Assembly: GCF_002277955.1 (NCBI RefSeq)
Contig: NZ_CP018477.1
Location: 1,364,001-1,428,000, forward strand
From: Thermogutta terrifontis
GTDB taxonomy: Bacteria; Planctomycetota; Planctomycetia; Pirellulales; Thermoguttaceae
Direction: 5' to 3'
Length of the DNA stretch: 64,000 nt
The position numbers and the translations under genes were made by a program. The notes beneath the pieces are model-generated. The model was not told the DNA's origin and ran no database searches. It saw only the letters and a program-made list of their open reading frames with translations. Shown in pieces: positions 6,979-63,640 of this stretch. Each line of letters begins with the position of its first letter. Position 1 is the stretch's first letter.

Positions 6979-7068
6979 GGAGGGACCTCCTTGTCAGGTT
7001 GTCGGGTCCACTTTTCAACATTTGGATTGTCTATTGGGTTTCAACGGGCACGACAAGCATGTCCCTCC
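6979..7068 (+). repeat. Paired GGAG-foot hairpin element (family A), copy 1
   Basis: A 90-base element bounded by GGAGGGAC and, inverted, GTCCCTCC. Each end is a small hairpin with loop CTTGT (ACAAG on the other end) preceded by the foot GGAG. The left stem is degraded (GGACCTC against CAGGTTG). The right one is GGACATG against CGTGCCC. Confidence 0.65.
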
Positions 7069-7080
7069 GAAGCATTTCTC

Positions 7081-7107
7081 GGAGGGCCCCGCCTGTCAGG
7101 TCCGTTT
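7081..7107 (+). repeat. Degraded half element of family A
   Basis: GGAGGGCCCCGCCTGTCAGG, then TCCG, resembles the left end of family A, but the stem no longer pairs well. The expected right half is missing. A family B element begins 32 bases further on and may have replaced it. Confidence 0.45.
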
Positions 7108-7138
7108 GTCAACATTCGATATTCCATTGACTTCGGCA

Positions 7139-7185
7139 GGGACTGAAGTCCCGCGCCGAAAGCGGGGCTAAAGCCCCGCACTCCA
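7139..7185 (+). repeat. Double-hairpin element (family B), copy 1
   Basis: Two adjacent hairpins: GGGACTGAAGTCCC, then GCGGGGCTAAAGCCCCGC, separated by a short GCCGAA-type spacer and ending in ACTCCA. Read on the minus strand it starts TGGAGT followed by the GCGGGGC stem, so it also carries a GGAG foot. Confidence 0.7.
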
Positions 7186-7191
7186 CATCTC

Positions 7192-7273
7192 GGAGGGACC
7201 TGCTTGTTCAGGTCCGCCGTCCGACGTTCGATCATCCGTTCCCGTTCGTCGGGCACGACAAGCGTGCCCCTCC
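7192..7273 (+). repeat. Paired GGAG-foot hairpin element (family A), copy 2
   Basis: An 82-base element. Left end: foot GGAG, stem GGACCTG, loop CTTGTT, stem CAGGTCC. Right end on the opposite strand: foot GGAG, stem GGGCACG, loop CTTGT, stem CGTGCCC. The two stems differ in sequence but each is perfectly complementary. Confidence 0.75.
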
Positions 7274-7282
7274 ACTCCGAAG

Positions 7283-7310
7283 GTAGGGGCAATTCATGAA
7301 TTGCCCCTAC
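7283..7310. repeat. 28-base perfect palindrome (family C), copy 1
   Basis: A perfect palindrome with foot GTAG, half-site GGGCAATTCA and its exact mirror ending in CTAC. The same sequence recurs at 9946-9973, with close copies at 36248 and 44415. Confidence 0.85.
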
Positions 7311-9945: not shown

Positions 9946-9973
9946 GTAGGGGCAATTCATGAATTGCCCCTAC
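9946..9973. repeat. 28-base perfect palindrome (family C), copy 2
   Basis: Identical over all 28 bases to the copy at 7283-7310, lying 2.6 kb away on the other side of the RACo-like gene. It sits upstream of the decayed recombinase remnant. Confidence 0.85.
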
Positions 9974-10015: not shown

Positions 10016-10037
10016 GGAGGGGCATGCTTGTCGTACC
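10016..10037 (+). repeat. Degraded single hairpin of family A
   Basis: Foot GGAG, stem GGGCATG, loop CTTGT, then CGTACCC. The loop and foot are conserved but the stem has two mismatches. No matching partner end is visible within 100 bases. Confidence 0.5.
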
Positions 10038-10108
10038 CGTCGTAACGCAATACACGGTCACGCGTTGGAAAGAGGACTGCGTCGGAGGTTGTTCTTTACG
10101 CGAACCAC

Positions 10109-13912: not shown

Positions 13913-14248
13913 ATGGCGGGCGTCCTGAATGAGATTATCCGCATCCGCATGGAATCCTACGACCACGCGGTGCTCGACCAGTGCGCAAAGGAAATTGTTG
14001 ACACGGCCAAGCGCACGCATTCGAAAGTGCATGGGCCGATTCCGCTCCCAGTGAAGATTGAGCGGTACACCGTGCTTTCCAGTCCCCACGTGGATAAGAA
14101 GGCGCGGCAGCAGTTTGAGATTCGGACGCACAAGCGATTGATTGACATCCTAGAGGCGACTCCCAATACCATTGAGCAACTGAACAAGCTGACGGCTCCC
14201 GCGGGGGTCGATATCAAGATTAAGGTCATTTCCCGCACTCGAAAGTGA
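13913..14248 (+). CDS. rpsJ: 30S ribosomal protein S10
   Basis: First gene of the ribosomal block. The protein has 111 residues, about eight more than E. coli S10 because of a short N-terminal extension (MAGVLNE) before [14 protein letters not shown]. Conserved segments [25 protein letters not shown] and RTHKRLIDI are intact. S10 binds the 30S head and doubles as NusE in antitermination. No tuf, fusA or rpsL gene precedes it, unlike the classical str-S10 order. Confidence 0.98.
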
Positions 14249-35843: not shown

Positions 35844-35924
35844 GGAGGGACCTGCTCGTCAGGTCCGCTTTCCGACGTGGGGGCAAGCCTTGCGTTTCGG
35901 CGGGCACGACAAGCGTGTCCCTCC
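35844..35924 (+). repeat. Paired GGAG-foot hairpin element (family A), copy 3
   Basis: 81 bases. Left end: GGAG foot, stem GGACCTG, loop CTCGT, stem CAGGTCC. Right end on the other strand: GGAG foot, stem GGACACG, loop CTTGT, stem CGTGCCC. Confidence 0.75.
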
Positions 35925-36046: not shown

Positions 36047-36093
36047 TGGAGTGCGGGGCTTTAGCCCCGCTTTCCGCGCGGGACTTCAGTCCC
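36047..36093 (-). repeat. Double-hairpin element (family B), copy 3, inverted
   Basis: TGGAGT, then GCGGGGCTTTAGCCCCGC, then GGGACTTCAGTCCC: family B read from the other strand. It abuts copy 2 exactly, joining as ACTCCA/TGGAGT. Confidence 0.7.
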
Positions 36094-36128
36094 CGATGAA
36101 AGGCCATGGATGATCGAACGTTGAGCGG

Positions 36129-36152
36129 CGGACGTGACAAGCAGGTCCCTCC
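36129..36152 (-). repeat. Single family A hairpin (half element)
   Basis: On the minus strand: GGAG foot, stem GGACCTG, loop CTTGT, then CACGTCC with one mismatch. Its partner end is missing; the family B pair lies where it would be expected. Confidence 0.55.
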
Positions 36153-36160
36153 AAAAGGTC

Positions 36161-36241
36161 GGAGGGGCACGCTTGTCGTGCCCGGGAAAAGGGAATGGAT
36201 GATCCAATGTCAAACGGCGGACCCGACAAGCGGGTCCCTCC
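36161..36241 (+). repeat. Paired GGAG-foot hairpin element (family A), copy 4
   Basis: 81 bases. Left end: GGAG foot, stem GGGCACG, loop CTTGT, stem CGTGCCC. Right end on the other strand: GGAG foot, stem GGACCCG, loop CTTGT, stem CGGGTCC. This right stem has a third pairing sequence not seen in the other copies. Confidence 0.75.
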
Positions 36242-36247
36242 GACACT

Positions 36248-36275
36248 GTAGGGGCAATTCGTGAATGGCCCCTAC
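36248..36275. repeat. 28-base palindrome (family C), copy 3, imperfect
   Basis: Same foot GTAG and end CTAC as the perfect copies, with two changes: a central GTGAA in place of ATGAA, and TGGCC in place of TTGCC. It follows a family A element by 6 bases. Confidence 0.75.
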
Positions 36276-44139: not shown

Positions 44140-44718
44140 TGTCTCGCACCCAGCATATGTCTTTGTTGTCTTCCCGAGCAAACCAAACCTCGCATTTCAA
44201 ATGACTGTCTCTCTCATTTTCAAAAACTCGAGCTTATGGTCAAGAATGTGGGCGGCTCAATCGTTCCCACTTTTTTCTCTTGCGAGAAAGAAACGTACGC
44301 CTTGGGCAGGAGCGAGATTCGCTCGCTAGGGTCGTAATACCGTCCGCATTCTGACATTGCACAGAGCGTTCCAATAACTGGGCTCGGTCTGGTTGGTTCG
44401 GTGCCTGTTTAGAAGTAGGGGCAATTCATCAATTGCCCCGACAAGACGTTGAACCTCTAGACGCTCGCAAGTCCTTACAAAAAGGTCGCGGGATCAGCGT
44501 GAGTCCTCCAGTTCAGAGAGCGTCGGCACAATGGTGAGGAAAAGGCAACCACACTACTACAGATGCCTGGGAGAAGTTGCAACACAGCACGGTATGCGGT
44601 TTCTCACGCCGTGTTGTTTGTCATATTGCAAAGGGCGTGGTTCGCCGAGCGTTCTGTTCGGTGTGTCCGAAAAAGCCACGATTTTGCCGTGATTGGAACC
44701 GACCTGGCGTCCCGGCAG
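44140..44718. other. Gene-free gap with one palindrome
   Basis: No supported gene. The only structured feature is a family C palindrome at 44415. The rhomboid promoter is expected at the left end on the minus strand, but no clear boxes are seen. Confidence 0.4.
44415..44442. repeat. 28-base palindrome (family C), copy 4, imperfect
   Basis: GTAG foot and GGGCAATTCA as in the perfect copies, then CAATTGCCCCGAC, so two bases differ. It stands alone, away from families A and B. Confidence 0.75.
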
Positions 44719-53761: not shown

Positions 53762-53811
53762 AGGTGGACCTGACAAGCAGGTCCCTCCGAGGGACGGAGG
53801 GACCTGCCCGC
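53762..53811. repeat. Two abutting family A hairpins
   Basis: On the minus strand: GGAG foot, stem GGACCTG, loop CTTGT, stem CAGGTCC, ending at 53788. A second plus-strand start GGAGGGACCTGC begins at 53798 but its other arm has diverged. The pair is inverted about a short centre. Confidence 0.6.
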
Positions 53812-62317: not shown

Positions 62318-63640
62318 TTACGCCTTGCGGATTTTTTCGCGTCCGCATTTGACGTTTTTCGTCGCGTTCCGGGTATCGACGATTAAAGGAGCATGCTGAA
62401 CGATAAAGTCGTAGTCGTAGACCGAATGGTCCGTAGCAATCAGTACGCAATCCTGGGAGGCCAGAAACTCCGCCGTCAGTTCAGAACTGGTCATTTCCGG
62501 TACGCGGAAGTGCCGCATCTTAGGTAATTTAGGAATATACGGATCGTTGTAGGTCACAATCGCACCGCCGTCCAGCAGCATTTCCATGAGCGCGAAGGAC
62601 GGGCTTTCCCGGGGATCATCCACATCTTTTTTGTAGGCCATGCCCAGGATGCACACCTTGCTTCCTTTCAGCGGCTTCCCGTGTTCATTCAGCGCTTTAA
62701 TGACCTGGTGGATGACATACTCGGGCATGGAAGTATTGATCTCGCCGGCCAGTTCGATGAAACGGGTTGTCATGCCGTGCCGCCGTGCCAGCCAACTGAG
62801 GTAGAAGGGATCGATTGGAATGCAATGTCCACCAAGACCCGGACCAGGATAAAATGCCTGAAAGCCGAACGGCTTTGTTTTGGCTGCCTCAATCACTTCC
62901 CAAATATCAATTCCCAGTCGCTGGAAAAGGACTTTTAATTCATTGACCATCGCAATATTCACCGCCCGATAGGTGTTCTCCAGGATTTTGCAGGCTTCCG
63001 CTACTTCGGCGGAGGATACCGGAATCACCTGTACCACGGCGTGACTGTAGAGGGCGGTTGCCAGTTGCGTGCTCTTCGGTTCAATTCCACCGACCACTTT
63101 GGGAATCCGCTCGGCTGAATAGTTGGGATTGCCGGGGTCTTCACGCTCGGGGCTGAAAGCCAGATAAAAGTCCTGGCCTACTTTCAACCCGGTGGCTTCG
63201 AGAACTGGTAACATCACCTGCCGTGTTGTTCCCGGATAGGTGGTGCTTTCGAGAACCACGAGCTGATCTCGCCGCAACACCTTGGCGATGGCCTCGGTTG
63301 TGCCCTCGATGTACTGAAGATCAGGGTCCCGGCTCTCATTGAGCGGGGTGGGCACACAGATGAGAATGGCGTCCGGCTCGTTAAGCCGCGACATATCGGC
63401 GGTCGCTTCAAATCGCCCCGTGTTGATCCATTCCTGGATCCATTGGGACGGTATATGCCCGATGTAACTTTGACCGGCGTTCAGCTTCTGGACCTTTGCC
63501 TCATCAATATCAAACCCAATTGCCGAAAACCCCGCCCGAATGAACGCGCGAAGCAAAGGCAATCCCACATACCCCAGGCCGATAACGCCGACTTTGGCCT
63601 TTTTGTCGTTAATTCTCTGCAGGACCTCTTCGTACGTCAT
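62318..63640 (-). CDS. UDP-N-acetyl-hexosamine/UDP-glucose 6-dehydrogenase family
   Basis: A 440-residue NAD-dependent nucleotide-sugar dehydrogenase that oxidises C6 of the sugar to a carboxylate in two steps. The N-terminal Rossmann motif is VGVIGLGYVGLPLLRAF; FSPEREDPGNPNY, AEACKILENTYRAVNIAMVNEL and the catalytic GPGLGGHCIPIDPFYL (Cys273) follow; YKKDVDDPRESP is in the C-terminal domain. PGTTRQVM and FSPERExPGN are closest to the WbpA/UDP-GlcNAc dehydrogenase branch. AAGGAG lies 10 bases before the ATG. Product would be a uronic acid for surface polysaccharide. Confidence 0.93.
   Translation of the reverse strand: MTYEEVLQRINDKKAKVGVIGLGYVGLPLLRAFIRAGFSAIGFDIDEAKVQKLNAGQSYIGHIPSQWIQEWINTGRFEATADMSRLNEPDAILICVPTPLNESRDPDLQYIEGTTEAIAKVLRRDQLVVLESTTYPGTTRQVMLPVLEATGLKVGQDFYLAFSPEREDPGNPNYSAERIPKVVGGIEPKSTQLATALYSHAVVQVIPVSSAEVAEACKILENTYRAVNIAMVNELKVLFQRLGIDIWEVIEAAKTKPFGFQAFYPGPGLGGHCIPIDPFYLSWLARRHGMTTRFIELAGEINTSMPEYVIHQVIKALNEHGKPLKGSKVCILGMAYKKDVDDPRESPSFALMEMLLDGGAIVTYNDPYIPKLPKMRHFRVPEMTSSELTAEFLASQDCVLIATDHSVYDYDFIVQHAPLIVDTRNATKNVKCGREKIRKA

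Follow-up and report, generated by a model that had tools for sequence, protein, structure and literature searches.

The 64,000-nucleotide stretch of the Thermogutta terrifontis genome analyzed here (the window; 1,364,001–1,428,000 of its contig) carries at positions 7192–7273 a short element made of two hairpins in inverted orientation. What kind of element is this, and does the pairing of its changing stems mean that the folded single strand, not the sequence, is under selection, as an earlier note on this DNA had concluded? We compared copies of the element, referred to as family A, in the window's own genome (G000, a single contig of 4,810,751 bp) and in a congeneric genome (G002, a draft of 1120 contigs). 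We consider it rather probable that family A is a non-autonomous, REPIN-like mobile family, moved in trans by a Y1 HUH transposase of the TnpA_REP (RAYT) kind.

Anatomy and abundance of family A

The element at 7192–7273 is laid out as GGAG-GGACCTG-CTTGTT-CAGGTCC ... GGGCACG-ACAAG-CGTGCCC-CTCC. Its array also contains a decayed copy (6979–7068), a lone end at 7081 and members of two further repeat families. The family A features of the window are:

6979–7068, + strand: decayed full family A element of 90 nt, first unit of the array; right end found by relaxed scan
7081–7103, + strand: single left end, GGCCCCG/CCTGT/CAGGTCC, with a hybrid stem; followed by a family B copy at 7132–7185
7192–7273, + strand: full family A element of 82 nt, with a variable left hairpin (type CCTG), a centre and a fixed right hairpin (type CACG)
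7192–7195, + strand: left foot GGAG of the 7192 element, read from the sequence
7196–7215, + strand: left hairpin of the 7192 element, stem GGACCTG, 6-nt loop CTTGTT, stem CAGGTCC
7251–7269, − strand: right hairpin of the 7192 element, outside-in GGGCACG/CTTGT/CGTGCCC
7270–7273, − strand: right foot of the 7192 element, GGAG on the − strand
10016–10038, + strand: single fixed-type end, GGGCATG/CTTGT/CGTACCC
35844–35924, + strand: full family A element of 81 nt, left loop CTCGT
36130–36152, − strand: single end, one-arm hybrid, GGACCTG/CTTGT/CACGTCC
36161–36241, − strand: full family A element in opposite orientation, 81 nt, variable end of type CCCG at 36241
53766–53788, − strand: single variable-type end, GGACCTG/CTTGT/CAGGTCC

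The window thus holds 12 family A ends, where eight or more had been claimed: 10 from a relaxed scan plus the end at 7192 (6-nt loop) and a decayed end at 6979. Its full copies (90, 82, 81 and 81 nt) bear out the description of 81–90 bases with two inverted ends. A relaxed-scan match at 63181 and a 6-nt-loop candidate at 14199 were discarded as false positives. When three window elements were folded as DNA, 36161–36241 favoured a single long hairpin rather than two; for 35844–35924, 15 of 200 shuffled sequences folded equally well.

Three repeat families (A, B and C) share intergenic sites in the window. Family B copies at 7132–7185 and 36047–36100 interleave with families A and C in the same arrays, and family C "double foot" repeats (GTAGGGGC...GCCCCTAC) lie at 7283–7310, 9946–9973, 36248–36275 and 44415–44442, one copy ending in GCCCCGAC.

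Across the whole G000 genome, the pattern GGAGG-N6-CTTGT occurs 302 times on the forward and 301 times on the reverse strand, against only 6 and 4 matches for a control, the same pattern read backwards; the abundance of family A is not due to chance. A tight end pattern detected 451 ends in G000 and 239 in G002. The full elements (n = 194) comprised 114 from G000 (571 kb examined) and 80 from G002 (439 kb), counts that give no density, as most of these stretches were chosen for containing copies. The search covered lengths of 74–100 nt and 5-nt loops only, which places the 7192 element outside the 194. Every one of these elements measured 80–88 nt, and 141 of them exactly 81 nt. The right end was GGGCACG in 167/194, and the left stem belonged to one of three types in 172/194 (GGACCTG 67, GGACCCG 60, GGACGTG 45). 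The two ends are therefore unlike and not interchangeable, the right being fixed and the left variable.

Hairpins were also picked by a perfect stem with foot and loop left free (634 readings on both strands, halved to 317). Their foot was GGAG in 303/317, and their loops were CTTGT (240), CTCGT (40) and CCTGT (20). The conserved GGAG foot claimed earlier is thus confirmed, and the conserved CTTGT loop needs qualification, being near-constant with variants that are not rare. The centre, previously called unconserved, is not: 114 centres had a mean pairwise identity of 0.651 versus 0.559 after shuffling, and sub-families are discernible in their alignment. Elements often stand in tandem, with 29 of 59 neighbouring right-then-left ends spaced 8, 11 or 12 nt apart. 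Half units of ~30 nt are common, and 103/104 of them start with a non-GGGC end.

Covariation of the stems

Ends were selected by foot and loop pattern alone, without use of stem pairing, from 362.5 kb (228 ends). Their seven stem pairs were Watson–Crick in 221, 211, 214, 222, 215, 204 and 218 ends. Three of the seven pairs are highly variable, and at these positions pairing collapsed when the partner was shifted by one base. The stem tips do change in concert (CCTG with CAGG, CACG with CGTG, CCCG with CGGG), as the earlier note had observed. Among distinct 23-mers, pre-filtered to at least 5/7 pairs and so biased upward, the paired fraction of cells was 0.833 in G000 (shuffled mean 0.599, maximum 0.633) and 0.850 in G002 (shuffled mean 0.666, maximum 0.707). 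Five stem types account for 164/228 ends, and G002 carries the same types as G000. Since the same few types are common to a second species, the copies do not represent independent events.

Two IMG/VR contigs listed as viral, L292 (479–2632) and L293 (434–638, 11244–11324), carry full family A elements with further compensated types (left GGACGCG/CGCGTCC, right GGGCGTG/CACGCCC). These contigs are possibly host DNA of a Thermogutta relative, not virus. No RAYT was found in the IMG/VR loci by tblastn. Contig L298 and single matches in other IMG/VR contigs were rejected as family A, as they look like unrelated hairpins or chance; the L298 matches (4410, 9497, 10006) are GGGAGGG(C/T)CGCG-C(T/C)TGT hairpins in a GC-rich, unrelated contig and are not paired as in family A.

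Fate of resident copies

Among G000–G002 orthologous ends (145 found, 36 gapped, 8 without an end in G002), 81 were kept in alignments of at least 1000 nt, and 33 of these passed a filter for conserved outer and inner neighbourhoods. The 23 left ends comprised 9 identical, 10 with a change on one arm and 4 with changes on both arms. One of those four is clean, one is mixed and decayed, and two have centres matching at 20/25 and may be replaced copies. The 10 right ends comprised 7 identical and 3 with a one-arm change. Divergence of the left stem (17/161 and 12/161) was no lower than that of the outer flank (35/580) or centre (45/576), and the left foot (2/92) and left loop (4/115) diverged less than the stem, on small counts.

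A second comparison used 38 disjoint pairs of elements chosen for at most two centre differences. Their left stems were the same in 14 pairs, changed on one arm in 18, changed on both arms in 4 and mixed in 2. Stem differences were more numerous on the left (38/532) than on the right (10/532), and the paired changes, 8 in total, were confined to the two polymorphic positions. Foot and loop differed at 7/342 positions on the left and 15/342 on the right, against 35/1339 in the centre, a rate lowered by construction; the right foot and loop are thus not more conserved than the centre. Foot and loop in resident copies are not clearly protected.

Changes confined to one arm are the pattern that the earlier note had named as contrary to its reading, and they prevail in resident copies (10 one-arm versus 4 both-arm orthologous ends; 18 versus 4 pairs), though not in the population of stem types. 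Its conclusion that the folded strand is under selection accordingly holds in part: foot and loop are kept across copies and stems covary, but resident left stems diverge like their flanks, mostly on one arm. We conclude that resident copies are not tied to the stems they carry, and selection on the fold can hold only for copies that spread.

Some stems change as a unit. In the clearest case, L022:620 (G000) and L187:1338 (G002) differ by CCCG/CGGG versus CGTG/CACG with 25/25 of the centre and 24/25 of the outer flank unchanged. Further paired swaps with an unchanged or nearly unchanged centre occur in the tandem pair L241:4983/5076 and between L013:14104 and L286:8591; L235:5340 and L220:5277 show a paired swap plus one further one-arm change. 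Over the 172/194 elements with one of the three left stems, pairs at a centre distance below 0.12 shared the stem type in 22/27 cases in G000, 3/8 in G002 and 11/17 between genomes, whereas beyond a distance of 0.4 the share was 0.28–0.36 (chance 0.342). Stem type and centre are thus loosely linked, and only between near relatives.

These observations bring in an explanation whose chances we put a little short of even: that paired stem changes arise from DNA processes and not from selection on the fold. Copies would trade hairpin types through gene conversion or unequal crossover, the breakpoints lying in the conserved foot or loop; alternatively, template switching during replication would rewrite one arm from the other, and such switching is described as able to make compensatory stem changes in the accessible text of PMC8794818. 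The loose linkage of stem type to centre, the swaps with unchanged centres, and the excess of left over right stem differences together with the confinement of paired changes to two polymorphic positions all agree with it. It leaves unexplained the constancy of the foot across copies, the full self-complementarity of the common types and the new compensated types in related contigs, and one-arm differences outnumber swaps (18 versus 4). As resident stems diverge like flanks and types switch as units, exchange or template switching does contribute to the covariation. A narrower version, which we regard as doubtful, treats the variable stem as a cassette: both arms, with the loop kept, would be swapped for an existing type while centre, flanks and opposite end stay unchanged, amounting to hairpin-by-hairpin conversion, perhaps through a transposase exchanging single-strand ends or through template switching.

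Genomic placement and signs of mobility

The boundaries of family A have the consensus TC|GGAG...CTCC|GA (C in 70/80 elements, G in 72/80). No target-site duplication of 2–9 nt was found at the GGAG boundary in any of 80 elements. Because the TC and GA beside the boundary are conserved, the test was repeated with either boundary shifted outward by 0–4 nt, which gave at most 6/80, versus up to 5.4 by shuffling. The inverted ends, fixed length and high copy number would also suit a classical MITE, derived from a DDE transposon and bounded by 23-nt terminal inverted repeats. We think this unlikely: no tested boundary shows a duplication, and a stem whose sequence is free while its pairing is kept is unexpected for duplex recognition. 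A search for an autonomous parent likewise returned 11 pairs of facing ends 350–3500 nt apart, which enclose host-type open reading frames (ORFs); none visibly bounds a transposase, judging by eye from crude translations.

Family A avoids genes. Elements inside ORFs of at least 120, 200, 300 and 400 aa numbered 48, 15, 4 and 2 of 114, versus 93, 82, 68 and 53 expected. The midpoints of 56/114 elements fell "inside" six-frame ORFs of at least 120 aa, which we judged to be spurious, the share falling at longer cut-offs. A mostly intergenic position raises the question of a role in RNA, as a terminator, attenuator or mRNA stabiliser in intergenic transcripts, and 20 of 27 elements between tandem genes are co-directional with those genes (crude ORFs of at least 120 aa). 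Elements nonetheless occur in all three gene arrangements, with 15 flanked by convergent, 27 by tandem and 12 by divergent genes, and the only match above the gathering score of Rfam 15 in the window is one tRNA. Stem mismatches of the G.T kind are about as common as those of the A.C kind (56 versus 67 in G000, 40 versus 32 in G002), so nothing points to the RNA strand. As arrays also differ between species and two congeners lack family A, we regard a function at the RNA level as highly improbable.

The distribution is narrow. Of 119 genomes from the taxonomic family, 2 contained the tight end pattern, and two other congeners yielded no family A by that pattern or by BLAST. Orthologous arrays of G000 and G002 differ in content: G002 lacks ~230 nt of the array at L022:6240–6470, and also a 29-nt half unit exactly between CAACC and CGGAG, at a unit boundary, either difference being a gain or a loss. 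In G003 the intergenic region between the same genes spans 560 bp, holds no recognisable element and is too diverged to align. On the suggested check for loci empty in close relatives, array segments are missing from G002, and no clean single-element empty site was found in comparisons of G000 with G002 and G003. Separately, L112 (G002) and L027 18782–20000 (G000) are 99.3% identical over 1219 nt, the other long orthologous matches listed being ~78–94% identical; the stretch may reflect recent transfer or contamination.

Abundant intergenic sites able to form hairpins or a cruciform could also be kept by the host for a cruciform-binding nucleoid, gyrase or repair protein. The lack of copies in two congeners and of tight-pattern ends in all other genera examined from the family, together with resident left stems that show no visible purifying constraint, make such host-kept sites very unlikely.

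Candidate transposases

A mobile family of this kind calls for an enzyme acting in trans. G000 has one intact Y1 transposase, a RAYT (L011 1324–1911, − strand; G000:C1:896451–897032), which matches NF047646 at 83 bits (cut-off 80). It is flanked by family B repeats, with the foot GGAG-T (TGGAGTGCGG-foot), the loop TTTA and covarying tips (GGC/GCC 48/81, CGA/TCG 23/81). A single relaxed family A match at this locus, from a scan without a pairing test, was judged a coincidence. The second RAYT of G000 is a frame-broken relic at L161 bearing a GTAG...CTAC repeat; it was rejected as a family A partner and assigned to family C because of that repeat. G002, though rich in family A, gave no NF047646 or PF01797 match in its 1120-contig draft, even at E values up to 10.

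Homologues of the intact RAYT come mostly from Verrucomicrobia and also from Planctomycetes, Acidobacteria, Hydrogenedentes and others, and many of them have TGGAG-foot hairpins nearby. All 256 tetranucleotides were scanned beside perfect hairpins in the flanks of 63 of 67 homologues, the four most distant (L096–L099) being left out. The top four feet by loci were TGGA (42), GAAA (39), GAGT (33) and GGAG (33); all but GAAA, a flank word of another kind, are overlapping parts of TGGAGT. GGAG adjoins 33/63 homologue genes, with 109 matches near the genes versus 4.7 expected from distal flanks, and is absent as a foot at the other 30 loci. Loops at homologue loci include CTTG (12) and CCTTGT (6), and at the single loci L085, L060 and L076 stems change while the loop stays. 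None of the 67 homologue loci yielded a family A end in a strict-loop scan, and the foot differs in its setting: GGAG joins the stem directly in family A, whereas the clade's own repeats read GGAGT-GCGG. Family A shares the GGAG-foot grammar of RAYT homologue loci, but the intact RAYT of G000 is a candidate partner, not a demonstrated one. Alternatively, the real partner may have been lost, or may be a class 3 enzyme (foot CnGA) that escaped recognition.

Relation to known repeats

Family A shares much with the REP doublets (REPINs) and RAYTs of Pseudomonas fluorescens SBW25: inverted short palindromes, a similar total length, high copy number, extragenic and clustered positions, and single-strand hairpins. 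Of the REP and REPIN hallmarks, it shows inverted doublets at fixed spacing, a short palindrome that folds into a stem-loop immediately 3' of the foot, high copy number and an extragenic location. It differs from SBW25 REPINs in its GGAG foot, its unlike ends, its near-constant loop with a changing stem and the lack of a family A RAYT among those found. The REP foot GT[AG]G is replaced by GGAG, and no RAYT flanked by family A was found in the loci scanned; because of these two findings we describe family A as REPIN-like in its working rather than as a true REPIN. Set against published REP and REPIN descriptions, rather than ISfinder-type catalogues, it is an abundant REPIN-like family with a non-canonical foot.

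Several of its properties have precedents. Compensatory hairpin changes were already noted in SBW25 REPINs, according to the accessible text of Bertels and Rainey 2011 (PMC3116915). For group 3 TnpA_REP, the text available from PMC8266576 describes single loop positions as essential, cleavage as impaired by stem mismatch and changes of stem blocks as milder; the REPs concerned (Stenotrophomonas, Marinomonas) resemble family A in a short perfect stem, essential loop bases and a need for pairing, and differ in a GTAG foot. GTAG-/CGTC-tagged palindromic repeats, as far as the consulted sections of PMC3733652 describe them, are known in Planctomycetes, carry a tag at one end of the stem-loop, form dimers and fall into groups, as in family A, with complementary stem changes drawn in IUPAC code; the tag of family A matches neither. 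Compensatory changes in REPIN hairpins, complementary variation of REP stems and the dependence of group 3 TnpA_REP on loop and pairing are thus already known.

The repeats of class 3 TnpA_Y1, in the part of PMC6006769 consulted, have the foot CnGA and high copy numbers and occur in Planctomycetes, Acidobacteria and Proteobacteria. Family A resembles them in copy number, and its foot may be of this kind: C precedes GGAG in 70/80 elements, so CGGA fits CnGA. Neither G000 nor G002 yielded a recognisable class 3 gene with PF01797 or NF047646, models that may miss class 3. The family C repeat inside the frame-broken L161 relic matches what is described for TnpA_Y1 subclass 2.4. As a word, GGAG is absent from the main text of PMC3733652, PMC8266576 and PMC6006769, whose supplements may tabulate the foot, and a literature search returned no paper treating GGAG together with REP sequences in planctomycetes. 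No planctomycete repeat system with a GGAG foot was seen in the literature searched.

Proposed mechanism and implications

From these lines of evidence we infer movement itself, a RAYT of the G000 clade as the transposase and the rules of recognition. Each 81-nt unit would act as an inverted pair of single-strand hairpins, on which a Y1 HUH transposase of the TnpA_REP/RAYT kind would work in trans. The enzyme is predicted to recognise an end by its unpaired GGAG foot and its CTTGT loop, carried by a paired stem whose sequence hardly matters, and to cut next to the foot, moving the unit without target duplication. New copies would land beside old ones, building the tandem arrays with their short linkers and 30-nt half units. 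Stems would covary because only folding units are amplified, stem types then being shuffled among copies, and an inserted copy would decay freely. Stem types may thus persist because folded copies spread, while also being reshuffled.

If this model is right, it carries the REP/RAYT scheme over to a second foot, GGAG, among planctomycetes and their relatives. Family A would offer a natural case of a near-fixed foot and loop with varying stems, one that lets the rules of recognition be deduced from genome sequence. A caution comes with it: DNA palindromes can covary without each copy being under selection. Were the cassette reading true, stem covariation would arise without compensation by point mutation. 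With two congeneric genomes rich in copies, the shares of selection, exchange and template switching become measurable.
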